From Stieleria magnilauensis (lineage in GTDB: Bacteria > Planctomycetota > Planctomycetia > Pirellulales > Pirellulaceae): DNA of 64,000 bases. Positions 37,210 through 52,090 of this stretch are shown piece after piece. The stretch is taken from the NCBI GenBank assembly GCA_007753675.1, contig CP036432.1, positions 1,834,394 through 1,898,393 of the forward strand, in the 5' to 3' direction. The notes beneath the pieces were generated by a model. That model made no database searches and was not told the origin of the DNA. It saw only the letters and a list, made by a program, of their open reading frames with translations. The stretch's first letter is position 1. The number at the start of each line of letters is the position of its first letter. The position numbers and the translations under genes are program-made.

Positions 37210-38253
37210 CTAACACAACGTCGCCGATTGCAAATGCAACCAATCCCGTTGCTCCGGTGTCAGCGCGTCGAGTGACGTTGCCGTGAACTTGGTCGTCGCA
37301 TCGATCAAGGCAGCCTGTGAAAGTGTGCCATCGGCATTCACCACGCCGAAACTGACGCCGAACAGCGATGCATCGCGCAGGTCCGCTCCGCGCAGATCCG
37401 CGGCTGAAAAATCGGCTCCTTCCAGATCCGCCCCGCGCAAATTCGCGTCACGTAGATCGGCAGATTGCAGATGCGCGTTGGAAAGATTGGCGCCCCGAAA
37501 CTCCGCGCGACGCAGGTTCGCGTTTCGCAGATCGGCGTTGCGCAAGAGCGAATTGTCGGCATGCAGGTTTTCCAAATCCAAACCGCGGGCTTCCAGACTC
37601 AACAGATCGCGGCCGCTGAAATCGCGATCGCGAATCAGCCGAGCGGCGTCTTGCTTGCTGAGACTTGCAGCGATGTACCGCTGCTCCTTCCAAGGGTCGG
37701 CCCCGTTGTGGTAACCGGCATCAGATTCCCAGTAACCGAGACGATCATCGGACAGAAATTCGATGCGTTCAAGCCACTTGATACTCTTGTAAAAATACTT
37801 GCCCGGCACGACCATCCGAACGGGTCCGCCGTGTTCGACTGGCAACCGCTCGCCGTCGGCTTTTAGCGCGATCAACGGATCCAGGTCCAACAGTTCGTCC
37901 AGGGGCAGCGACGTGCGATGAGAACGCTCGCTGCGAGCGACGAACGAAACAAACCGGGCTTGCGGATTCCAAAGCGGCTGACCGTTTGCATCTGCGACCA
38001 GTTCCGCAAATCGAACGCCTTCAAACTCCATCTGCAACTTCGACCACCGCGTCACACAATGCACGTCGATGCATCGAGTCGTTTGCGGCATTACGGCCAA
38101 GTCGTCCAAATCAACGCGACGTTCGGCCCGCACCTGGCCACAAACCGTGATCGTCCACGGTAGGTCAAGGTTGCCGGGAGACCGTTCGCCGACGACCGGC
38201 CAACAATCGCGGCGGACCAATTGCTGATTGGGAGGGATTGATTTGGAGTTCAT
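37210..38253 (-). CDS. sulfite-oxidase-like molybdopterin domain fused to pentapeptide repeats
   Basis: From ATG 38253 the 347-residue protein has an oxidoreductase molybdopterin-binding (COG2041-like) domain at about residues 20-175: the Mo-ligand candidate C66 in DVHCVTRW and EHGGPVRMVVPGKYFYKSIKW (140-160) are visible. From about residue 212 to 305 it carries around nine AD/NLxx-type pentapeptide repeats (LRNADLRNANLRRAEFRGANL, LRGADLEGADF). No signal peptide is seen. The pairing of a Mo enzyme domain with a right-handed pentapeptide helix is unusual. Molybdenum loading, redox activity and partner are inferred; a cytosolic electron partner is not in the window. Confidence 0.85.
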   Translation of the reverse strand: MNSKSIPPNQQLVRRDCWPVVGERSPGNLDLPWTITVCGQVRAERRVDLDDLAVMPQTTRCIDVHCVTRWSKLQMEFEGVRFAELVADANGQPLWNPQARFVSFVARSERSHRTSLPLDELLDLDPLIALKADGERLPVEHGGPVRMVVPGKYFYKSIKWLERIEFLSDDRLGYWESDAGYHNGADPWKEQRYIAASLSKQDAARLIRDRDFSGRDLLSLEARGLDLENLHADNSLLRNADLRNANLRRAEFRGANLSNAHLQSADLRDANLRGADLEGADFSAADLRGADLRDASLFGVSFGVVNADGTLSQAALIDATTKFTATSLDALTPEQRDWLHLQSATLC

Positions 38254-38279
38254 AAGGGGAAATAGAAACACATCGAAAG

Positions 38280-39011
38280 AAGATTCGCAACCGCGCTGGT
38301 GTGCAGGCTTCAGCCGCACCGCTGCTCCGCAGCGAATGAAGATGCGCCTAAAGGCTGGACACCAACCTGCGCTGGTGCGCAGGCTTCAGCCGCCCGTCAT
38401 GCTGCTCCGCAGCGAGTGGGGATGCGCCTCAAGCCTGGACACCAACCGCGCTGGTGTGCAGGCTTCAGCCGCCCGTCTTGCTGCTTCGCAGCGCGTGGGG
38501 ATGCGCCTGAAGGCTGGACACCAACGGTTGCTGGTGTGCAGGCTTCAGCCGCCCCGTCTCGCTGCTCCGCAGCGACCCGTAGGATGCGCCTAAAGGCTGG
38601 ACACCAACCTGCGCTGGTGTGCAGGCTTCAGCCGCCCGTCTTGCTGCTTCGCAGCGAGTGGGGATGCGCCTAAAGGCTGGACACCAACGTGCGCTGGTGT
38701 GCAGGCTTCAGCCGCCCGTCTTGCTGCTTCGCAGCGCGTGGGGATACGCCTGAAGGCTGGACACCAACGGTTGCTGGTGTGCAGGCTTCAGCCGCCCGTC
38801 ATGCTGCTCCGCAGCGAGTGGGGATGCGCCTCAAGCCTGGACACCAACCGCGCTGGTGTGCAGGCTTCAGCCGCCCGTCTTGCTGCTTCGCAGCGCGTGG
38901 GGATGCGCCTGAAGGCTGGACACCAACGGTTGCTGGTGTGCAGGCTTCAGCCGCTCCGTCTCGCTGCTCCGCAGCGAGTGGGGATGCGCCTGAAGGCTGG
39001 ACACCAACGTC
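38280..39011. repeat. family C array: nine copies of an approximately 80-bp unit
   Basis: Nine copies of CAGGCTTCAGCCG start near 38307, 38379, 38458, 38539, 38621, 38700, 38780, 38860 and 38940. Each unit pairs GGTGTGCAGGCTTCAGCCGCC with the inverted AGGCTGGACACCAAC, and contains the small hairpin GCTGCTCCGCAGC. The ORFs through it on both strands are shadows. A single partial copy lies at 53040-53065. Confidence 0.9.
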
Positions 39012-40175: not shown

Positions 40176-41315
40176 ATGAGTTCTTATCGAATCGCATTGT
40201 TACCCGGCGATGGCATCGGACCGGAGTGCATGGACGCGACCTACCGGGTACTCGGCCACATGGTCGATCAGATCGACGGTTTGGATCTGGGGTTTACGTC
40301 CCACCGCGCGGGCGCAGAACTGTATCGTGACACGGGTGAAACGTTACCCGCGGCAGTGTTGGAAGATTGCTTGGCCGCCGATGCGGTGCTGTTGTCCGCG
40401 ATCGGTCTGCCTGACGTGCGCTACCCCGACGGCACCGAAGTCCAGCCGACGATGATGGTCGGATTGCGCCGTGCATTGGCGGTGCACTCGGCCGTCCGTC
40501 CGGTCAAGCTTTATCGCGGCGCCCCTTGCGTGCTCAAAGACACCGGGCCGGGAATTGATTTCGTCATCATCCGAGAGAACCTCGAAGGACTGTTTGCATC
40601 CTTCGGCGGCGGCAGCAAGGTGGGCGACGAAGTAGCCACCGACACGCTGGTCGTGACCCGCAAGGGCACGTCGCAGGTATCGGATTTTGCGTTCCGTCTG
40701 GCCCAGCGTCGCAACGGACGTCCCGTCGACGGCAAGAAAATGGTCACCTGTGTCGACAAGGCGAATGTTTTTCAAAGCATGGCGTTCTTCCGCAAAGTCT
40801 TTTTCGATGTCGCGAACCACTATCCCGACATCCAACCCGACGCGGTGTATGTCGACGCGATGAGTTTGTACATGGTGCAAAACCCCTGGGACTTTGATGT
40901 CCTGGTGATGGAAAACCAGTTCGGCGACATCCTGTCGGACCTAGGAGCCGGCTTGGTCGGCGGGCTCGGTGTCGGACCCTCGGCGGAGATCGGCGAAGAA
41001 CACGGTTTATTTCAGCCTTCCCATGGGACGGCACCGCAACTGGCCGGCAAGAACGTTGCCAATCCGCTGGCGACGATTCTGTCGGCTGCGATGATGTTGG
41101 ATTGGCTGGGCGACAAGCACAACGACGCCGTTTGTCTGCGCGCGGCGGTGGACTTGGAACAGGCGGTCGAAAAAGTGATCGCCGACGGAAACGTGATCAC
41201 GCCCGACATGGGCGGAAACGCGACCACGTCCCAAGTCGCCGCGGCAGTGTGTGACGCATTGGGATGTGACGCGCCGGGCCGCGATGTCCACAGCGTCGCC
41301 ACCCCCGCCAATTGA
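40176..41315 (+). CDS. isocitrate/isopropylmalate-dehydrogenase-family protein
   Basis: From ATG 40176 ([17 protein letters not shown]) the product is 379 residues, normal for the family. Family pieces are [29 protein letters not shown] (substrate loop with the ENLEGL sequence), the catalytic [11 protein letters not shown], and a terminal [12 protein letters not shown]. Decarboxylating oxidation of a 2-hydroxy acid is expected with NAD(P), but isocitrate, isopropylmalate or tartrate cannot be told apart here. Citramalate- or leucine-pathway neighbours are absent. The open frame extends to 40065, but the family start is at 40176. Confidence 0.9.
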
Positions 41316-41401: not shown

Positions 41402-44400
41402 ATGATGAGACGAACAACACGATTGAACCCCCACATCGCAACCACATGGCTGCTTTTCGTTGCCGCAGTCAGCGCCGCGTCAGCGCAGGCACAGCAGCCG
41501 ATCGTCGATGAGTCGGTCGTGTTCGCCGAGCAGGACGGCTTGGTAGCCGTTGAAGCGGAGCATTTCTTCAAACAAACCGCCAACGACGTTCGTGCGTTTT
41601 ACCTGACACACGCAGACTCGACACTGTCGATCACACCCGACGGAGATCCGTCACACGTCGCCGGAGCCAGCGGTGGCGCCTACTTGGAAATCTTGCCCGA
41701 TACACGTCGCACCCACGGCGACAAACTCATCCGGGGCACCAACTTTTCACCCGAACCCGGTGCGATGGCCGTGCTGCATTACAAGGTCGATATCTCGACG
41801 CCGGGGACCTACTACGTCTGGGTCCGCGCCCATTCGACCGGATCCGAAGACAACGGTCTGCACGTCGGCATCGATGGCACTTGGCCCGAAAGTGGCCAGC
41901 GGTTGCAGTGGTGCGAAGGCAAACAGACATGGCGCTGGGAAAGCAAACAACGCACGGAGAAACAACATTGCGGCGAACCCTATAAGATCTTTTTGGAAAT
42001 CAACGAACCGGGCGAGCACGTCATTCATTTTTCGATGCGTGAAGACGGTTTCGAATTCGACAAGTTCTTGATGACGACCGAGCGAGAATTCCCCCGCCCC
42101 AGCGGCGCCGGTCCCCAACCGCGCGTCAAACGTGGGACGCTGCCCAAAGCATTCCCCTTGGTTGCCGCCCCCCGCAGTGACACTGCGTCAACCACCACGG
42201 CGCCGACAGCACCAGCGTCATCTGCCAGTGGTGACCGGGCGTCGTTGAAATTGACCGCCGCCGAGTTCGCCGAAGGCAACAAGTCGGGCTACTACCTGGA
42301 CCAGGGCAAATGGCTGGCGATCAACCCCGATCAACACAAACGAGCATCGTCCGCCAAAACCTTTCCGTTCCCTACCGGACGATACAACGTCACGCTGGAA
42401 ACGGTCGGTGAAAACGATGGCCAATCCAGCTACGAGGTGTCGGTCGATGAGACGAAGATCGGCCAGTACACCAACCCGCTGGCCGATGCGATGTACAAGG
42501 AAGGCAAAGCGTTTCACAAGACATGGAAAAATGTGCCGATCACCGAAGGCGCCATGATCGGCGTTTCCTCAACGATCGGCAGCAAGGACGGACAAGAATT
42601 CAGCCGCGCCCGCTGGGCGGCCGTCGCCTTCACCGCCGCCGATGCCGCGACCGCTCAGTCGATCGCGCCGGTCCTGGCAAACCAGGCGGCACAACCGCAA
42701 CACGTCGCCACGGGCAATTCCAAATCCAGCCCCACCAAACCCTCCAGCGACCAACCGCTGCAACTGCCACGCGGCAAAGACGGTGACGGCAGCGTCAACG
42801 TGTCCGGTGAATTGAAACAGTGGCACAAGGTCACGCTGGACGTGAACGGCCCCTACGCCCACGAAAAAGACAACCAGCCCAATCCGTTCACCGACTATCG
42901 CATGACGGTCCAGCTGAAACACTCCGGCGGAACCCACTACACCGTGCCGGGCTACTTCGCCGCCGATGGCAACGCCGGCAACACCTCCGCAGAATCAGGA
43001 ACAACGTGGCGCGTCCATTTCGCTCCCGATCAAACCGGCCAGTGGACCTACACCGTTTCCTTTCATCAGGGCGAACTGGCGGCACTGGATTCCAACGTCT
43101 CCTCCGAGCCGGTGGCTCCCTTTGACGGGATCAGCGGGACGTTCACCGTCGCCGAAAGCGACAAGTCGGGCCGCGACCTGCGTGGCCAGGGCCGATTGAC
43201 GTACGTCGGCAAACACTACCTGCAATTCGCAGGATCAAAAAAATACTTCTTGAAAGTCGGTGCCGACGCGCCGGAAACCCTGCTCGCCTACGCCGACTTT
43301 GACAACACGATTGCCGGCAACCCCAAAAAAGCTCCCGTGAAAACTTGGGCGCCGCACGTGCAAGACTGGAAAGATGGCGATCCGACCTGGGGCGACGGCA
43401 AGGGCAAAGGCTTGATCGGCGCGGTCAACTACTTGTCCGGCAAGGGCTGCAATGCGTTTTCCTTTCTGACGTACAACGCCGGAGGTGACGGAGACAACGT
43501 CTGGCCCTTCATCCAACGCGAAGACAAACTGCACTACGATTGCAGCAAGCTGGACCAGTGGGGAACCGTGTTCGATCACGGGACGGCCAAAGGCATGTAC
43601 CTGCACTTCAAGCTACAGGAAACCGAAAACGACGACCACAACAAGCACAAAGCGTCCGGCGGTGTTCCGGAAAGTCTCGACGGCGGCGATCTCGGTTCAC
43701 AGCGCAAACTGTACTGCCGCGAATTGATCGCCCGCTACGGTCACAACTTGGCGCTCAACTGGAACCTGGGCGAAGAGAACACGCAGTCGACTGAGCAACA
43801 ACAGGCGATGATCAACTACATCGCCGAACTCGACGCCTTCGGGCACAACATCGTCGTCCACACCTTCCCGTCGCAACAGGACCAAGTCTATCGACCGCTG
43901 CTCGGTGATCGATCAAAATTGACCGGCGTTTCCCTGCAAAATAGCAGCCTGGAAACCACGCACGCGCAAACGGTCAAATGGGTTTTCGAATCCGCCAAAG
44001 CGGGCAAGCCTTGGATCGTCGCCTTCGACGAATCCGGCAGCGCCGCCCACGCCCAGTGCCCCGACCTCGGCTACAAGGGCTTTGACGGACACGACCGGAC
44101 GGGCAAGATGGCGTACACGCAACACAAAGTCCGCAAACAAACGCTGTGGGGAACCCTGATGGGCGGCGGTGCGGGCAATGAATACTACTTCGGATACCAG
44201 TTCGACGAAAACGACATCGTTTGTGAAGACTGGCGCAGCCGCGATCAAAGCTGGGATTATTGCCGGATCGCGATCGGGTTCTTTCATGACCACCAAATCC
44301 CCTTTTGGGAAATGAAGAACGCCGATGAACTGATCGGAAATCCAGATCGTAAGCCGACCAAATACTGTTTCGCCAAAGCGGATGACACCTACCTGGTGTA

Positions 44401-44599
44401 CCTCTGCGACGGCGGATCGTCGACGTTGGATCTGTCCGGCACCGCGGCAGACTACGGCGTCCGCTGGTTCAACCCGCGTGATGGCGGAGCGCTGCAATCG
44501 GGCAGCACAACCAGCGTTGCCGGCGGCGGCACCGTCTCCCTCGGCAAAGCCCCCTCCGATCCCGATCAAGACTGGTTGGTGGTCATAAAAAAAAAGTAG
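41402..44599 (+). CDS. secreted DUF5060-type glycosidase
   Basis: From ATG 41402 the protein is 1065 residues with an export segment ending near AQAQ. An N-terminal module (about residues 30-250) has the [15 protein letters not shown] and [10 protein letters not shown] pattern of glycosidase-associated modules. After a Ser/Thr/Pro linker comes a DUF5060-like domain ([38 protein letters not shown]), then a TIM-barrel-like region with LNWNLGEEN (about residue 785) and IVAFDESG (about 874), where the acidic residues may be catalytic. A putative C-terminal collagenase-like binding domain ([18 protein letters not shown] to DWLVVIKKK) ends the protein. It stops in A9 followed by TAG. Confidence 0.85.
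44587..44599 (+). other. A9 homopolymer with A AAA AAG heptamer and stop: candidate -1 frameshift or slippage site
   Basis: Nine adenines at 44587-44595 are followed by GTAG. In the glycosidase frame this reads AAA AAA AAG TAG, so A AAA AAG is in the correct phase of a -1 slippery heptamer (X XXY YYZ). The -1 frame continues into the Kelch sequence without a stop. No stable downstream stem could be judged by eye. A sequencing error in the homopolymer is an alternative. Confidence 0.75.
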
Positions 44600-44724
44600 T
44601 CGCTGACTCGGGGCAAGCCGCTGACTCGGGGCGAACGGATCTGGGACAGACTGAAACGGGCAGCCGACGGCAGTGGGAAACCATCGATGCGATCGGCAGC
44701 CCGACGGCCCGCCACGAAGCCACC

Positions 44725-45645
44725 TTGGTGGTTTTCCGGAACAAGCTGTATCTGATCGGCGGGCGTCGGGTGAACCCGGTCGACGTCTACGACCCCGCGA
44801 CGAACACGTGGACGGCGAAGTCAAAGACGCCGTTGGAACTGCACCATTTTCAAGCCGTGGTGGTGGGCGACGCGATCTACTTGATGGGGGCGATGACGGG
44901 GCCGTACCCCAACGAAACGCCGCTCGAAAAGATCGTCGTCTATTATCCCGATGAAGACCGTTTTGATTTCGTGCATGGTGTTCCTGAGAGTCGGCGTCGC
45001 GGCGGTGCCGGAGCGGTCTACCATGACGGCATGATCTATCTGGTCGGCGGCATCACCAACGGACACATCGACGGTTTCCAGCCTTGGCTGGATCGATACG
45101 ATCCGGTGACCGGCGATTGGGACGTTCTCGCCGATGCGCCCCACGCGCGGGATCACTTTCAAGCCGTCGTCTCAGGCAACCGTCTCTATTCGATCGCGGG
45201 CCGAACGACGTCAAAAGCGACTAACGAGGTGTTCAGCCGTGTCGTGGCGCCGGTTGATGTTTACGATTTTAAAACCTCCCGTTGGCTTCCCGAATCCGAA
45301 TGCCCAGTCCTTCCGACGCCGCGGGCAGGCAACATGGCCACCGTCTGGCAAAATGAAGTGATCGTCGGCGGGGGTGAGACGACACAGAAAACGGCGCACA
45401 ACGACGTCGAAGCCTTTGACACGGTGTCGGGCACGTGGAGGTCATGGCCCGAACTCAATCGCGGACGTCACGGTTCGGGATTCGCGATTGTGGGCGAATA
45501 CGTTTACACTGCGTCTGGATCGGGCAACCGCGGAGGGTCGCCGGAGTTGACGTCGATTGAACGATTGGAATTGCCGGTCGCGAAACCCGCCCCGTCATCC
45601 AGCACGACCCATCGGGGGCGACTCCGAACAGCCACGGCGGACTGA
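44725..45645 (+). CDS. Kelch-repeat protein, reading frame open upstream into the glycosidase end
   Basis: The Kelch sequence has repeated VVVGDAIYLMGAM, YHDGMIYLVGGI and NRLYSIAGRTT segments and NEVIVGGGET, each a four-stranded blade with the typical gly-rich turn; about five to six blades are visible. The nominal TTG start at 44725 cuts the first blade: matching sequence (RRQWETIDAIGSPTARHEATLV) lies upstream in the same frame, which is open from 44587 with no ATG, GTG or TTG in between. A ribosome site is not seen. It lacks a signal peptide of its own. This suggests it is expressed as a fusion with the preceding glycosidase through -1 slippage, or that the gene is split by an error. Confidence 0.6.
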   Translation: MVVFRNKLYLIGGRRVNPVDVYDPATNTWTAKSKTPLELHHFQAVVVGDAIYLMGAMTGPYPNETPLEKIVVYYPDEDRFDFVHGVPESRRRGGAGAVYHDGMIYLVGGITNGHIDGFQPWLDRYDPVTGDWDVLADAPHARDHFQAVVSGNRLYSIAGRTTSKATNEVFSRVVAPVDVYDFKTSRWLPESECPVLPTPRAGNMATVWQNEVIVGGGETTQKTAHNDVEAFDTVSGTWRSWPELNRGRHGSGFAIVGEYVYTASGSGNRGGSPELTSIERLELPVAKPAPSSSTTHRGRLRTATAD

Positions 45646-45734
45646 TCCATTCAAATTGCAATCGCTTGGTACTCGCGCCCTGCTGAGGCGGTGCGGGTGC
45701 GAGAATCTTCCTCCTAACCTTGTTGTGATCGGGT

Positions 45735-46850
45735 ATGAAACGACGTCTCTTCTTGACCACGTTACAGTCACTCATCGCGTCCAATGTTGCGGTGCTGCTG
45801 TGCCTCACCGGTTCCCCTTCAGGTTCGGTCGCAAGTGGCCAAGAAACAGGGGACGCCGCCTTGCAACATGTGAACGATCCCGACGCCAGTGATCCCCTCG
45901 ATTCGGGCGTCTTCCGTTGGCGCGTCGGACCTCCGTTTCTGCAGGTCGACGCCCAGCGTTTGCCGGCATCACCGGAGCATCCCTGGCTGGCGGTCAAAGA
46001 TCCCAGCATCGTGCGTTACGCCGACCGTTGGCATTTGTTTTGCACGTTGCGGAAACGCAAATCGGGCGACGGTCGGATTCGAATCGGATACCTTTCCTTT
46101 GCCGACTGGGCCGATGCCAAGGAGGCCGACTGGAGCGTGTTGGACTTGACGATGGGCTACCACGGGGCGCCGCAGATTTTCTATTTCCAGCCGCATCGCA
46201 AGTGGTACCTGATCTATCAGGCCAGCGATGACACCCGCGGCTTGAAATACGGCCCCTGTTTTTCCACCAACGATTCGATCGATCAGCCCGACCGTTGGAC
46301 GCGTCCCGAACCACTGTATGTCGTCAAAGACGGCGCCAAAGCGGGATTGGATTTTTGGGTCATCTGTGACGATGCCAAGGCACACCTGTTCTTCACGTCG
46401 CTCAACGGTCAGATGTGGCGGGCCGAAACTTCACTCGCTGATTTCCCCAATCGCGGATGGTCGGATCCCCAAGTGGTCTTGCAAGCCGACATCTTCGAAG
46501 CCAGTCACACGTACGCGATCCAAGGACGACAATTGTATTTGACGGTGGTCGAAGCCCAAGCCGGCCGCAGGCGTTATTTCAAGGGCTTCGTCAGCGACCG
46601 GTTGGACGGAACCTGGAAGCCGTTGGCGGCAAGTCAGCAAAAGCCGTTGGTCTCACCGATCAACGTGGTCAATCAAGACCAATCGTGGGCGACCTCGTAC
46701 AGCCACGGCGAACTGATTCGCAGCGGCTACGACCAGCGATTAGAAGTCAACCCCGATGATTTGCAATTGTTGTTCCAAGGAGCCAACGACAAGGAGTACC
46801 AACGCGGCAATTACGGCGACATCCCCTGGCGGCTGGGAATTCTAAAGTAG
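45735..46850 (+). CDS. GH62 alpha-L-arabinofuranosidase
   Basis: The 371-residue protein has a signal peptide (SLIASNVAVLLCLTGSPSGS) and the five-bladed propeller of GH62. Catalytic-type residues are D89 in KDPSIV (base), D206 in AGLDFWVICDD and E255 in FEASHTY (acid), with APQIFYFQPHRKWYLIYQ, SPINVVNQDQSWATSYSHGELIRSGYDQ and GDIPWRLGIL also matching. GH62 enzymes remove arabinose side chains from arabinoxylan or arabinan, so the protein acts in the periplasm or outside the cell. It follows the Kelch frame and precedes the propeller-type sensor kinase. Confidence 0.95.
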   Translation: MKRRLFLTTLQSLIASNVAVLLCLTGSPSGSVASGQETGDAALQHVNDPDASDPLDSGVFRWRVGPPFLQVDAQRLPASPEHPWLAVKDPSIVRYADRWHLFCTLRKRKSGDGRIRIGYLSFADWADAKEADWSVLDLTMGYHGAPQIFYFQPHRKWYLIYQASDDTRGLKYGPCFSTNDSIDQPDRWTRPEPLYVVKDGAKAGLDFWVICDDAKAHLFFTSLNGQMWRAETSLADFPNRGWSDPQVVLQADIFEASHTYAIQGRQLYLTVVEAQAGRRRYFKGFVSDRLDGTWKPLAASQQKPLVSPINVVNQDQSWATSYSHGELIRSGYDQRLEVNPDDLQLLFQGANDKEYQRGNYGDIPWRLGILK

Positions 46851-48166: not shown

Positions 48167-51100
48167 ATGCGTCGCTTCCTCCGACTTTTCTTGTTTTCGC
48201 TCATCGCGTCCCTGTTCGCGATCAGTGGACTTGCGCAGCAACCGGCACCGATCGCGCGACCATGGCAAGTCGTCTCGTTCTTCGATGATGCCCAGTTGGC
48301 AGAGAAGTCGGTCACGCATGCCGACGTTGCGGCCGATGGATCGGTTTGGCTCGCCGTTTCCGACGGGCTGTATCATTACGACGGGTATCGCTGGAAACGT
48401 TACACCACCGCAGACGGTCTTCCTAGCAACTACGTTCGCTGTGTGTTGGTTGCCGACGATGGCGCACTCTGGGTCGGGACTGACCGTGGCGCAGGCCGGT
48501 TTGACGGTGAAACGTTTGATGGCAGCACGCTGCAAGGTCAATTGGCCGGCCCCAGCATCCGCCGCATCGTTGAAGACAGTGACGGGTCACTGTGGTTTTG
48601 TTGCGACCAGTGGCCCAAGGGCGATGTCACCGCCGGCCTGACCCGCATGCAAGACGGACAGTTCACCACCTGGCGTCAGAGCGACGGGTTGCCCAGCAGC
48701 TACACGTCCGACTACGTCCGAGTCACCAGCGGCCAACAATTCGTCTTGACCAACCAAGGCCTTGCCGAATTCACCGACGACGGTTTCCGGCAACCGCTCA
48801 AGGATGCCGGGCTGTGGGAACAAGACACCTACATCTGGTCCATGGTCGAGAGTGCCCGACACGGATTGATCGTCTCCACCGATGATCATTTCTTTCAATT
48901 CAAAGACGGATCGTGGCGTCGCATCCCCAATCAGATCGCGGACCTGGAACAACCGAAACTGGTCGCCACCCGAGACGGCGAAGTCTTCACCTGCACGCCG
49001 GGACGGGGACCGGTGATCTATCGTTGGGTCGGCGGCGGTTGGGAGAAAACGTCTCGCCAGTTGACGGACGTCACCGGTGGCAACAATTACCTATTCGAAG
49101 ACGACCAGGGTGCGGTCTGGATCGCCGGCTCGGAACGCCTGCTCCGCTGGAACCGAGGTGAACCGGAGTGGCAGCTGCATCAAGATGTCGGCGGACCGGT
49201 CCATCGAGACACACAGGGCGGAGTCTGGTTCAAACAGATTCAAGGCGGTTTGGTGCGTTGGGCTTCGGATCGACCGACGCACTACCGCGACCTTTCCGAA
49301 CCGATCTACGAAGACTCCCAAGGCGTGCTCTGGTCGGCGTCCGAAAAGGGTCTTTATCGATGGGACCACGGTCGTCTCCAGCAGGTTGATCTGGCAGACC
49401 ACATCAAGCCGAAGCTGCTGGGGATCGACGGCCGCGATGTGGTCTGGCTCTCAGCAACAGACACCGATCGAAACCGATTCGTGATCGGGATCGCCGGCGA
49501 CCAGATGTACGTCAAAGACATTTCGCATTTTCAAGATCGGGTTCGTGTGAGTCGCTCCTATGCCGACCCGCGTTCAGGGATTTGGGCAATCCTGGGCGCG
49601 AACAACTTTCCGCCGTTTCAACTGGTGCACTGTGATCCCGAATCGATCACCCCGATTGCGCTACCGAACCGGGCTCAGATCAGTCATCCGCCGAATGTGA
49701 CAGCGTTGGCCGACGGCTCGGTTTTTGTGTCGGGATTTTTTGGGCTGATGCGGACGACCGATTTAGGTGCGAACTGGACCGAAGTCCCGATGCCGTCCTC
49801 GGCCTTGGGCAAGATTCGCGTGCTCGGCGGAGAAGCGTGGGTGCAATGTCGCGGCGACTTGGGCGGTCAAGCCGCGTTGGCGCGGTTCCGCGACGGCGAG
49901 TGGGAAATAATGTTTGATCGTCAAGGCAAGATCGTCGGTCAAAACGGAAGGAAACAATTGTTCGCATCGTCACAAGGCAAAATCGAAGTGCTGACCGCGG
50001 GCGTGGAAGAACTGCCGCCGCCGATCGCCACCACGCCGTTCGAAACCCGCGTGTCAAGCGTCGTCGCGGGAGACTCCGGTGAGCTGTGGGTGGGGGTAGG
50101 CACGCGTTGCTATCGCTATCGGTCCGATGCCGATGCGCCGGAAACTGAAATCATTGACGGCGATCAAACGCTCGGTGAAGACGAAACGCTGCGGTTACGT
50201 GTCCGTGGTTTGGAACGGTTCAAACCGAAGCAACAGAATCGGTATTTCCGTGTCTCCACTCGCGTCGACGACCATGATTGGACGCCCTTTGAAACGCTCG
50301 ACGAAGAGATCGTCTTTCCGACCTTGCCGCTGGGCGAACACCGCGTGCAGGTGCGGGTTCAGGATGCCGCGGGCCAAATCGATCCGACACCCGCCGTGTT
50401 CCGCTTCAGCGTTCTACCGGTGCCGCTGCAATCGAGAGCCTGGTTCAAACCAGTCGTGGCTATCGGTTTTGTGTCCATTCTCGCCTTGGCGCTGCTGGCA
50501 TTCTTCAATTGGGCCAGGGTTGGAAAAATGGCTCGCGATCTGGAGCGTCAAGTCGCCCTCAAGACCAATCGAGTGGTCGCCAGCGAGCGGGAATTCCGGC
50601 TGCTGTTCGAAGACTCACAAGACGCGATTTGTTTGTTCGCCGATGATGGGACGTTGCAAAGTTGCAACGGTGCCGGGACAGAGCTGTTGGGCAAGCAAGA
50701 AAACGCGACCACTCATCTGCGGACGCTGTTTGTGGACCTAGACGAAGCGGATCGGTTTGAGACGGAGTTGCGGAAAACCAATCATCTGCGCGGCAGCCGC
50801 TTTCGAATGCAAACCCTCGATGGGAAACCGTTTGACGCGATCGTGTCGGTCAATACGCGAACCGACGCCGCCGGAAAGCAGAGCGGGCATCAAGTCATCA
50901 TTCGTGACATCTCCACGCTCGTCGATCTCCAGCAACAGCTTTCGGAGACCAAGAAGATGGAAGCGGTCGGCCGCATGGCCGGTGGCATCGCACATGACTT
51001 CAACAACTTCCTGGCGGTCGTGATGTACGGCGCCGAGTTTGTCCGAATCAGTGCCAAGGGCGACCCGGCGGTGGATCAAGGCGTTCAGATGATCTTGGAC

Positions 51101-52090
51101 GCCGCCGAACGCGGACGAAACCTGACCGGCCAGATCCAAACCTTCAGTCGCGCGTCGACGAACAAGATGGACATCGTCAAGACGGACAAGGTGCTCGAGG
51201 GAATCGAACCGCTGCTGCAAGGCGTCGTCGATTCGTCGGTCGCGGTGGAGTATCACGTCACCGAAGGACTTGACAACATTCGCGCCGATGTCAGCCAACT
51301 GGAACAGATCTTCGTCAATCTGGCGATCAACGCCTCCCACGCGATGCCCGATGGCGGAACGCTGAGCATCCATGCGTCCAACGCGGACGTTACCGAAGAA
51401 CAATTGCCGGAACTGAATCTCGATGTTCCCGGTCCCTATGTCGTCATCGAAGTTGTCGACACCGGTCACGGTATGGACGCGGCGACCTGTGAACGAATCT
51501 TTGATCCTTTCTTCACGACCAAACCGCACGGCCAAGGAACCGGGCTGGGGCTGGCAATCGTCTACGGCATCGTCCGACAGTTCCGCGGCCAGATCTCGGT
51601 GGACAGCCAGCCCGGTCGCGGGACGCGGTTCAAGATCTTCCTTCCAGCCACCAAAGAACACAGTGACGAACCGGCCACCGAATCCGCCGGCCAGGATCCC
51701 ACCCAAGGCAGCGAGACGATCTTGTTGGTCGAAGACGAACAGGCGATCCGTGATCTGGCGTGCCGGTCGTTGCGACATTACGGGTACCGTGTCGTCGGCG
51801 CCGTCGACGGTTTGGATGCCAAACACAAGATCGAAACCGGTGGCGAGTTTGATCTGGTGATTTCAGACGTACTGATGCCTGGAATGACCGGGACGGCGTT
51901 GTTGACGTGGCTCCGCAAGTCGCGGCCGGATATGCCGATCCTGCTGATGACCGGTCACGCCGACGGTGGCCCCGATCAGGCGATGGACCAACTCGACGTG
52001 CCCTGTTTAAAAAAGCCGTTTCTTCCGGCGGCGTTGGCCGCGCAAGTCCGTCAATTGCTCGACGGTCGGTTGGCTCCGACCTCCTCTTGA
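48167..52090 (+). CDS. hybrid two-component sensor kinase with periplasmic propeller
   Basis: The 1307-residue protein has a signal peptide (LFLFSLIASLFAISGLAQQ). Two-component regulator propeller blades follow (repeats such as YTTADGLPSNYVRCVLVADDGALWVGTD and DGSLWFCCDQWP), then a Y_Y_Y-like domain (PLGEHRVQVRVQDAAG). A membrane helix sits at about 758-784 and a PAS region near 800-930. The HisKA segment has H943 in GGIAHDFNNF. The HATPase region has the DTGHGMD and GTGLGLA boxes, and a C-terminal receiver has the DLVISDVLMPG acceptor Asp. It lacks the AraC output of classic glycan-sensing HTCS proteins, so it must pass phosphate onward. The adjacent arabinofuranosidase points to arabinan or xylan sensing. 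Confidence 0.95.
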   Translation: MRRFLRLFLFSLIASLFAISGLAQQPAPIARPWQVVSFFDDAQLAEKSVTHADVAADGSVWLAVSDGLYHYDGYRWKRYTTADGLPSNYVRCVLVADDGALWVGTDRGAGRFDGETFDGSTLQGQLAGPSIRRIVEDSDGSLWFCCDQWPKGDVTAGLTRMQDGQFTTWRQSDGLPSSYTSDYVRVTSGQQFVLTNQGLAEFTDDGFRQPLKDAGLWEQDTYIWSMVESARHGLIVSTDDHFFQFKDGSWRRIPNQIADLEQPKLVATRDGEVFTCTPGRGPVIYRWVGGGWEKTSRQLTDVTGGNNYLFEDDQGAVWIAGSERLLRWNRGEPEWQLHQDVGGPVHRDTQGGVWFKQIQGGLVRWASDRPTHYRDLSEPIYEDSQGVLWSASEKGLYRWDHGRLQQVDLADHIKPKLLGIDGRDVVWLSATDTDRNRFVIGIAGDQMYVKDISHFQDRVRVSRSYADPRSGIWAILGANNFPPFQLVHCDPESITPIALPNRAQISHPPNVTALADGSVFVSGFFGLMRTTDLGANWTEVPMPSSALGKIRVLGGEAWVQCRGDLGGQAALARFRDGEWEIMFDRQGKIVGQNGRKQLFASSQGKIEVLTAGVEELPPPIATTPFETRVSSVVAGDSGELWVGVGTRCYRYRSDADAPETEIIDGDQTLGEDETLRLRVRGLERFKPKQQNRYFRVSTRVDDHDWTPFETLDEEIVFPTLPLGEHRVQVRVQDAAGQIDPTPAVFRFSVLPVPLQSRAWFKPVVAIGFVSILALALLAFFNWARVGKMARDLERQVALKTNRVVASEREFRLLFEDSQDAICLFADDGTLQSCNGAGTELLGKQENATTHLRTLFVDLDEADRFETELRKTNHLRGSRFRMQTLDGKPFDAIVSVNTRTDAAGKQSGHQVIIRDISTLVDLQQQLSETKKMEAVGRMAGGIAHDFNNFLAVVMYGAEFVRISAKGDPAVDQGVQMILDAAERGRNLTGQIQTFSRASTNKMDIVKTDKVLEGIEPLLQGVVDSSVAVEYHVTEGLDNIRADVSQLEQIFVNLAINASHAMPDGGTLSIHASNADVTEEQLPELNLDVPGPYVVIEVVDTGHGMDAATCERIFDPFFTTKPHGQGTGLGLAIVYGIVRQFRGQISVDSQPGRGTRFKIFLPATKEHSDEPATESAGQDPTQGSETILLVEDEQAIRDLACRSLRHYGYRVVGAVDGLDAKHKIETGGEFDLVISDVLMPGMTGTALLTWLRKSRPDMPILLMTGHADGGPDQAMDQLDVPCLKKPFLPAALAAQVRQLLDGRLAPTSS

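Follow-up and report, generated by a model that had tools for sequence, protein, structure and literature searches.

A nine-adenine tract probably joins a glycosidase-like protein to a Kelch propeller by slippage in three Stieleria species

In the 64-kb stretch of Stieleria magnilauensis DNA analysed here (the window, taken from genome G000, a single contig of 10,769,056 bases), a gene for a glycosidase-like protein ends at a TAG stop directly behind a run of nine A, and a predicted Kelch propeller without a leader follows in the −1 frame. How would such a propeller be made and exported? The initial annotation of this DNA had proposed that the two frames form one gene, joined by slippage at the A tract. 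The features on which the question turns are the following.

41402 to 44599, plus strand: glycosidase-like protein of 1065 residues, zero frame, from ATG 41402 to a TAG stop.
44587 to 44595, plus strand: A9 tract, the proposed slippage site, identical in S. sedimenti (G003) and in G001.
44590 to 44596, plus strand: in-phase A AAA AAG heptamer, read from the sequence.
44597 to 44599, plus strand: zero-frame TAG stop directly 3′ of the A9 tract, the same in three species.
44596 to 44667, plus strand: −1-frame linker with an 18-bp direct repeat (by eye).
44657 to 44703, plus strand: predicted hairpin of 18 consensus pairs, one of them broken in the window.
44668 to 45645, plus strand: predicted Kelch propeller and C-terminal tail, −1 frame, without a leader.
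44725 to 44727, plus strand: TTG, the first ATG, GTG or TTG of the Kelch frame after the tract, with no SD-like sequence before it (by eye).
45735 to 46850, plus strand: GH62-family protein, the next gene, which has a start and a leader of its own (by eye).

The 3′ end of the glycosidase gene reads GTC ATA AAA AAA AAG TAG, its last four codons occupying 44588–44599; the nine A and the in-phase heptamer, which we take to be a dnaX-type slippery sequence, are as initially described. The Kelch frame is exactly the −1 frame, in the window and in both G003 and G001. It had been described as free of stops from 44587 onwards, and it is open there, but the opening begins already at 44482, 35 codons before the tract, and extends to the stop at 45643–45645. 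A slipped product would have 1065 + 349 = 1414 residues, a small correction to the earlier estimate of about 1415. A consensus scan of 44300–46000, which is uninformative for this phylum, gave no promoter-like site.

From its domain make-up, we infer that the upstream protein is a glycosidase: Pfam models matched GH115_C (residues 40–239), DUF5060 (residues 471–554) and Collagen_bind_2 (residues 976–1062). No Pfam model matched the presumptive catalytic region between DUF5060 and Collagen_bind_2, and a PDB sequence search with the protein returned no chain at E 0.01. The N-terminus is a hydrophobic leader by eye, the protein is probably secreted, and an in-frame TTG at 41312 lies upstream of the ATG at 41402. 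Two other genes of the window were noted. Adjoining the glycosidase cluster, 48167–52090 encodes a possible regulator, a two-component hybrid in which regulator-propeller repeats are combined with PAS, kinase ATPase and receiver domains; on the minus strand, 37210–38319 encodes a molybdopterin oxidoreductase domain joined to pentapeptide repeats.

Profile searches matched the −1 frame to Kelch_6 (1.7e-31) and Kelch_1 (2.8e-26). An AlphaFold2 model of this stretch, built from an alignment of 15 rows, had a mean pLDDT of 87.3, falling below 50 at residues 1–25 (the linker) and 336–352, and its top PDB fold matches include Kelch domains. On these grounds the −1-frame product is predicted to be a Kelch propeller; the PDB matches, many of them Kelch domains, name no function for it. 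Lacking a leader of its own, the propeller would be exported through that of the glycosidase.

A scan of 14 genomes of the genus revealed the junction in three species only. The A9-G-TAG arrangement with Kelch in the −1 frame occurs in S. magnilauensis, in G003 (94% glycosidase identity), whose contig is identical in every letter to that of Stieleria sedimenti ICT_E10.1, and in G001 (90%), presumably S. neptunia Enr13; another genome, G002, we take to be S. maiorica Mal15. Each of the three genomes has the string T-A9-G-TAG at a single place, and the other 11 have it nowhere. Comparison of relatives, which the initial annotation had recommended, thereby gave nine A in every junction genome, alongside in-frame fusions in seven other genomes that are described below.

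Selection on the shifted frame was estimated from Nei–Gojobori counts (omega, own script) for the pairs among the three junction genomes. For Kelch, omega was 0.190 (G000–G003), 0.122 (G000–G001) and 0.090 (G003–G001), and for the glycosidase, in the same order, 0.107, 0.105 and 0.116, at dS values of 0.18–0.38 for Kelch and 0.26–0.50 for the glycosidase. In all three lineages the Kelch frame contains no stop and no out-of-frame indel, the difference in linker length to G001 being a multiple of three. Linker codons 4–27 gave, between G000 and G003, a pN of 0.105 against a pS of 0.179 (small counts), and codons 28–46, ahead of TTG 44725, gave a pN of 0–0.045 against a pS of 0.08–0.25 (also small counts), with 0–2 nonsynonymous differences in 19 codons. 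On these few sites, the linker appears to be under loose constraint and the beginning of the propeller to be conserved. By the omega values, purifying selection acts strongly on the Kelch frame in each of the three species; it shows that Kelch is made, without telling how.

We then place the junction among its homologues. At a threshold of E 1e-20, the Kelch query (P0001) found matches in 33 of the 241 genomes of the family. The set of homologues comprised 27 loci, from 25 of the 30 non-junction family genomes together with G074 and G094 from the same order; G212, G215, G223, G224, G233 and weaker matches lie outside it. Standalone genes account for 18 of the 27; all of these start at an ATG or GTG and have, by eye, a hydrophobic N-terminus. 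Seven are in one open frame with a related glycosidase, in either domain order. The glycosidase comes first in G057 (71% identity to the window glycosidase), G231 (69%) and G049 (76%, over residues 454–1065 only), and Kelch comes first in G074 (69–74%) and in G209, G216 and G193 (38–41%, over the C-terminal half only); the loci with this reversed domain order, Kelch being N-terminal to a related glycosidase, are L037, L163, L164 and L165. The remaining two (G094 and G120) sit in other long frames, and at the G120 locus (L166) Kelch lies in a 667-residue frame behind a different N-terminal region without a glycosidase match. In G242 the two genes adjoin with separate starts.

In a FastTree phylogeny of 34 Kelch tips, the three junction Kelches group with the standalone gene of G005 (support 0.90) and then with G067 (0.85), and the in-frame fusions with C-terminal Kelch fall in another, distant clade (0.98). 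Because the tree separates the junction Kelches from the in-frame fusions, the joining of glycosidase and Kelch arose more than once, and its repetition suggests that the two domains act together. The junction form probably goes back to a standalone Kelch gene whose start and leader were lost. A separate Kelch gene with its own start and signal peptide had been named in the initial annotation as evidence that would speak against joining; such genes do exist, at the 18 standalone loci, but only in other genomes, and because the leader is gone from the three junction genomes they point to the origin of the arrangement and do not refute it. One close relative has lost the arrangement: in G006 (95% glycosidase identity) Kelch is deleted, the tract is broken and reads AAAGAAAAG, and about 36 residues of the linker and first Kelch strand persist as a remnant (L041, 5499–5606).

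We consider it probable, on this comparative evidence, that the locus is a dual-product gene that makes a 1065-residue enzyme and, by slippage at A9, a 1414-residue enzyme–Kelch chain. Standard decoding would stop at TAG 44597 and release the glycosidase, and a share of expression would slip at the tract, joining the Kelch propeller through a flexible linker to the glycosidase C-terminus. Both products would be secreted, the leader of the glycosidase exporting the fusion. We infer that slippage occurs, that its frequency is useful and that both products are important.

The same selection would be seen if the A9 tract instead changed length at replication, such that some cells made the in-frame fusion only and most made the short enzyme only. 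This form of phase variation at the DNA level would suit a homopolymer at the gene for a probably secreted protein, and a survey that counts frame transitions per phylum, with 2 genomes and 504 in its planctomycetes row, scored poly-A/T runs of 7 nt or more close to such transitions as a possible cause of phase variation (PMC3711429); frame transitions have accordingly been counted in this phylum before. The PVC group is also mentioned, in a passage of another report, among IS hosts (PMC7335449). Nevertheless, all three genomes have exactly nine A, and no other length occurs with Kelch retained, albeit in a small sample of three; we regard phase variation as unlikely.

Separate translation of Kelch could begin at TTG 44725 or at an ATC or, in G001, at a TTG ahead of the tract, and might be coupled to termination at TAG 44597; it would leave the propeller in the cytoplasm. 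The TTG and the GTG that follows it (residues 47 and 48 of the translated stretch) are the same in all three species, and in each this TTG is the first ATG, GTG or TTG after the tract. In the AlphaFold2 model, however, residue 47 lies inside the first β-strand (residues 45–50; pLDDT block mean 95), so that a start there would cut the Kelch fold, bearing out the earlier remark that it would cut the first blade. Moreover, no SD-like sequence precedes it by eye, and the stretch ahead of it resembles the homologues and, over its few sites, is conserved as described above. The open −1 frame had been said to contain no earlier ATG, GTG or TTG; this holds for the window and for G003 but fails in G001, where a TTG lies 15 bases 5′ of the tract (L033, 6263–6265). 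That codon is absent from G000 and G003 and gives no leader. Among near-cognate codons before the strand-1 TTG, only two ATC are common to all three species. As none of these candidate starts provides a leader, unlike the starts of the 18 standalone homologues, and the original observation that Kelch has no signal peptide extends to all three species, we consider separate translation very unlikely.

That the locus is a pseudogene, a fused gene broken by the loss of one base, is highly improbable: in-frame fusions do exist in G057, G231 and G049, but the junction Kelch does not group with them in the tree, and its frame has an omega of 0.09–0.19 and is intact in three lineages. Homopolymers are typical sites of indel errors, and the junction contains one. 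Yet the misreading of a true ten-A tract has a very small probability, since nine A were read in three separate assemblies, that of S. sedimenti on Illumina MiSeq according to part of its genome report (PMC9692418), and an error in all three species is unlikely. The comparison with relatives thus argues for one slippage-joined gene, as first proposed, over sequencing error or a separate Kelch gene.

Within the dual-product reading, slippage could occur at either of two steps. RNA polymerase could add a tenth A at the A9 tract, and the resulting mRNA with ten A would encode the 1414-residue chain; alternatively, ribosomes shifting to the −1 frame at A AAA AAG would yield the same chain. The codon before AAA AAA AAG is ATA, GTA or TTA (Ile, Val or Leu) in the three junction species. 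Elsewhere in the three glycosidase genes, only 10 of 470 Val, Ile and Leu codons end in A, at 9 sites, none of which is kept in all three. The ninth A is thus kept while the amino acid changes, and a dnaX-type heptamer has no need of it, requiring only the last six A. By eye, no SD-like element lies about 10 nt upstream of the heptamer in the three junction sequences. No stable hairpin was found 5–9 nt downstream, the first 61 nt after the stop folding much like shuffled sequences (z = 0.03, 0.11 and −1.20). The 121 nt after the stop do fold better than shuffles (z = −2.28, −1.96 and −2.99 for G000, G003 and G001), and a conserved predicted hairpin lies within conserved Kelch codons, its 5′ end 60 nt downstream of the slip site, or 42 nt in G001. 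We rejected this hairpin (44657–44703) as a canonical −1 stimulator because it is too far away and its spacing too variable. Given the nine A kept in full, and the lack of an SD-like element and of a hairpin at the usual spacing, we slightly favour transcriptional slippage over a ribosomal shift. The latter remains supported by the heptamer being in phase and by the sliding of ribosomes along iterated AAA codons, which was shown in E. coli (PMC4363877).

How much weight can conservation of the tract bear? According to one study, a large proportion of genomes show evident selection against A/T runs once these reach nine, and where homologues share a conserved 9A run, it very likely serves slippage (PMC1088944). 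On the other side, AAA codons for lysine are retained at 27 of 41 comparable sites. The 10.77-Mb G000 genome has 20 exact A9 runs on its two strands, and at least five of them, the junction included, are A9 at homologous places in both G001 and G003, in a comparison that covered all 18 runs of G001 and 19 of the 27 of G003. With at least four of the 19 other runs also kept in both relatives, we rejected A9 conservation as stand-alone proof, and under-representation of A9 (141 exact A8, 20 exact A9 and 5 places of ten A) was likewise set aside as too weak. Conservation of the tract is weak evidence by itself; together, the tract and the selected shifted frame make what we consider a strong comparative case.

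In S. sedimenti the shifted frame reaches further. Here (L032, reverse strand) the −1 frame has no stop after Kelch and continues for 673 codons, through the GH62-family gene; relative to S. magnilauensis, S. sedimenti lacks, between two copies of GGTCGC, the Kelch stop, the gap, and the start and leader of GH62 (by eye). The fused gene is the sole GH62 match of this genome at E 1e-20, and 13 of the 14 genus genomes have one match each. Its GH62 part is open over 340 codons with an omega of 0.12 against G000 and G001. S. sedimenti alone shows 20 synonymous and 8 nonsynonymous codon changes, the majority of them perhaps older than the fusion, and the Kelch–GH62 fusion is known from one draft contig. 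If made and exported, GH62 in S. sedimenti would also depend on the slip. A broader reading, which we put forward tentatively and with some doubt, is that the locus encodes a slippage-gated secreted polyprotein with one leader, in which A9 slippage sets the Kelch-bearing share. The deletion between the short GGTCGC repeats in S. sedimenti would have drawn GH62 into the −1 frame, giving about 1735 residues and three functional parts dependent on the slip, and slippage would let sugar-active domains share one export signal and gain partners.

If slippage is confirmed, the locus is an instance of a cellular bacterium using a homopolymer to append an entire domain to an enzyme that is probably secreted and acts on polysaccharides. 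Gene callers that require a standard start would list two genes, with Kelch truncated. One family also offers a natural comparison of the two domains as separate genes, as in-frame fusions in either order, as slippage-joined and as lost.

The E. coli dnaX gene has the same in-phase A AAA AAG heptamer as the Stieleria junction. Its −1 frameshift makes use of a nearby hairpin and of an SD-like element upstream, and shortens the product; neither element was found at the Stieleria junction. Three further systems, described here from parts of the respective reports, share other traits. As in Stieleria, Thermus thermophilus dnaX has a nine-A run late in the gene, mRNAs of differing length and two products, but there standard decoding gives the long product, whereas in Stieleria it would give the short, probably secreted enzyme (PMC1088944, PMC5009743). 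In tssM1 of Citrobacter rodentium, which together with T. thermophilus dnaX comes nearest in mode of working, a poly-A tract precedes the stop and slippage adds a C-terminal domain, giving two length variants that were shown by experiment, whereas the Stieleria products are predicted from sequence; tssM1 also differs in having eleven A, a distance of 28 nt from the tract to the stop and a role as a type VI secretion protein of which both variants are needed (PMC4256274). Closest in enzyme class is the α-L-fucosidase of Sulfolobus solfataricus, a glycosidase that needs a −1 shift at an A-rich heptamer, there A-AAA-AAT, with a 40-base overlap and a putative stem–loop; that shift joins two parts of one enzyme (PMC8037382), whereas the Stieleria shift would append a whole domain to an apparently complete one. 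As far as the consulted parts of these reports describe them, in none of T. thermophilus dnaX, tssM1 and the Sulfolobus fucosidase does a secreted enzyme that is apparently complete gain a second domain, and in the open-licence literature searched we found no case of homopolymer slippage adding a whole domain to a secreted polysaccharide-acting enzyme. The class of mechanism is already known from dnaX and tssM1, and the glycosidase–Kelch gene is an added case of that class.
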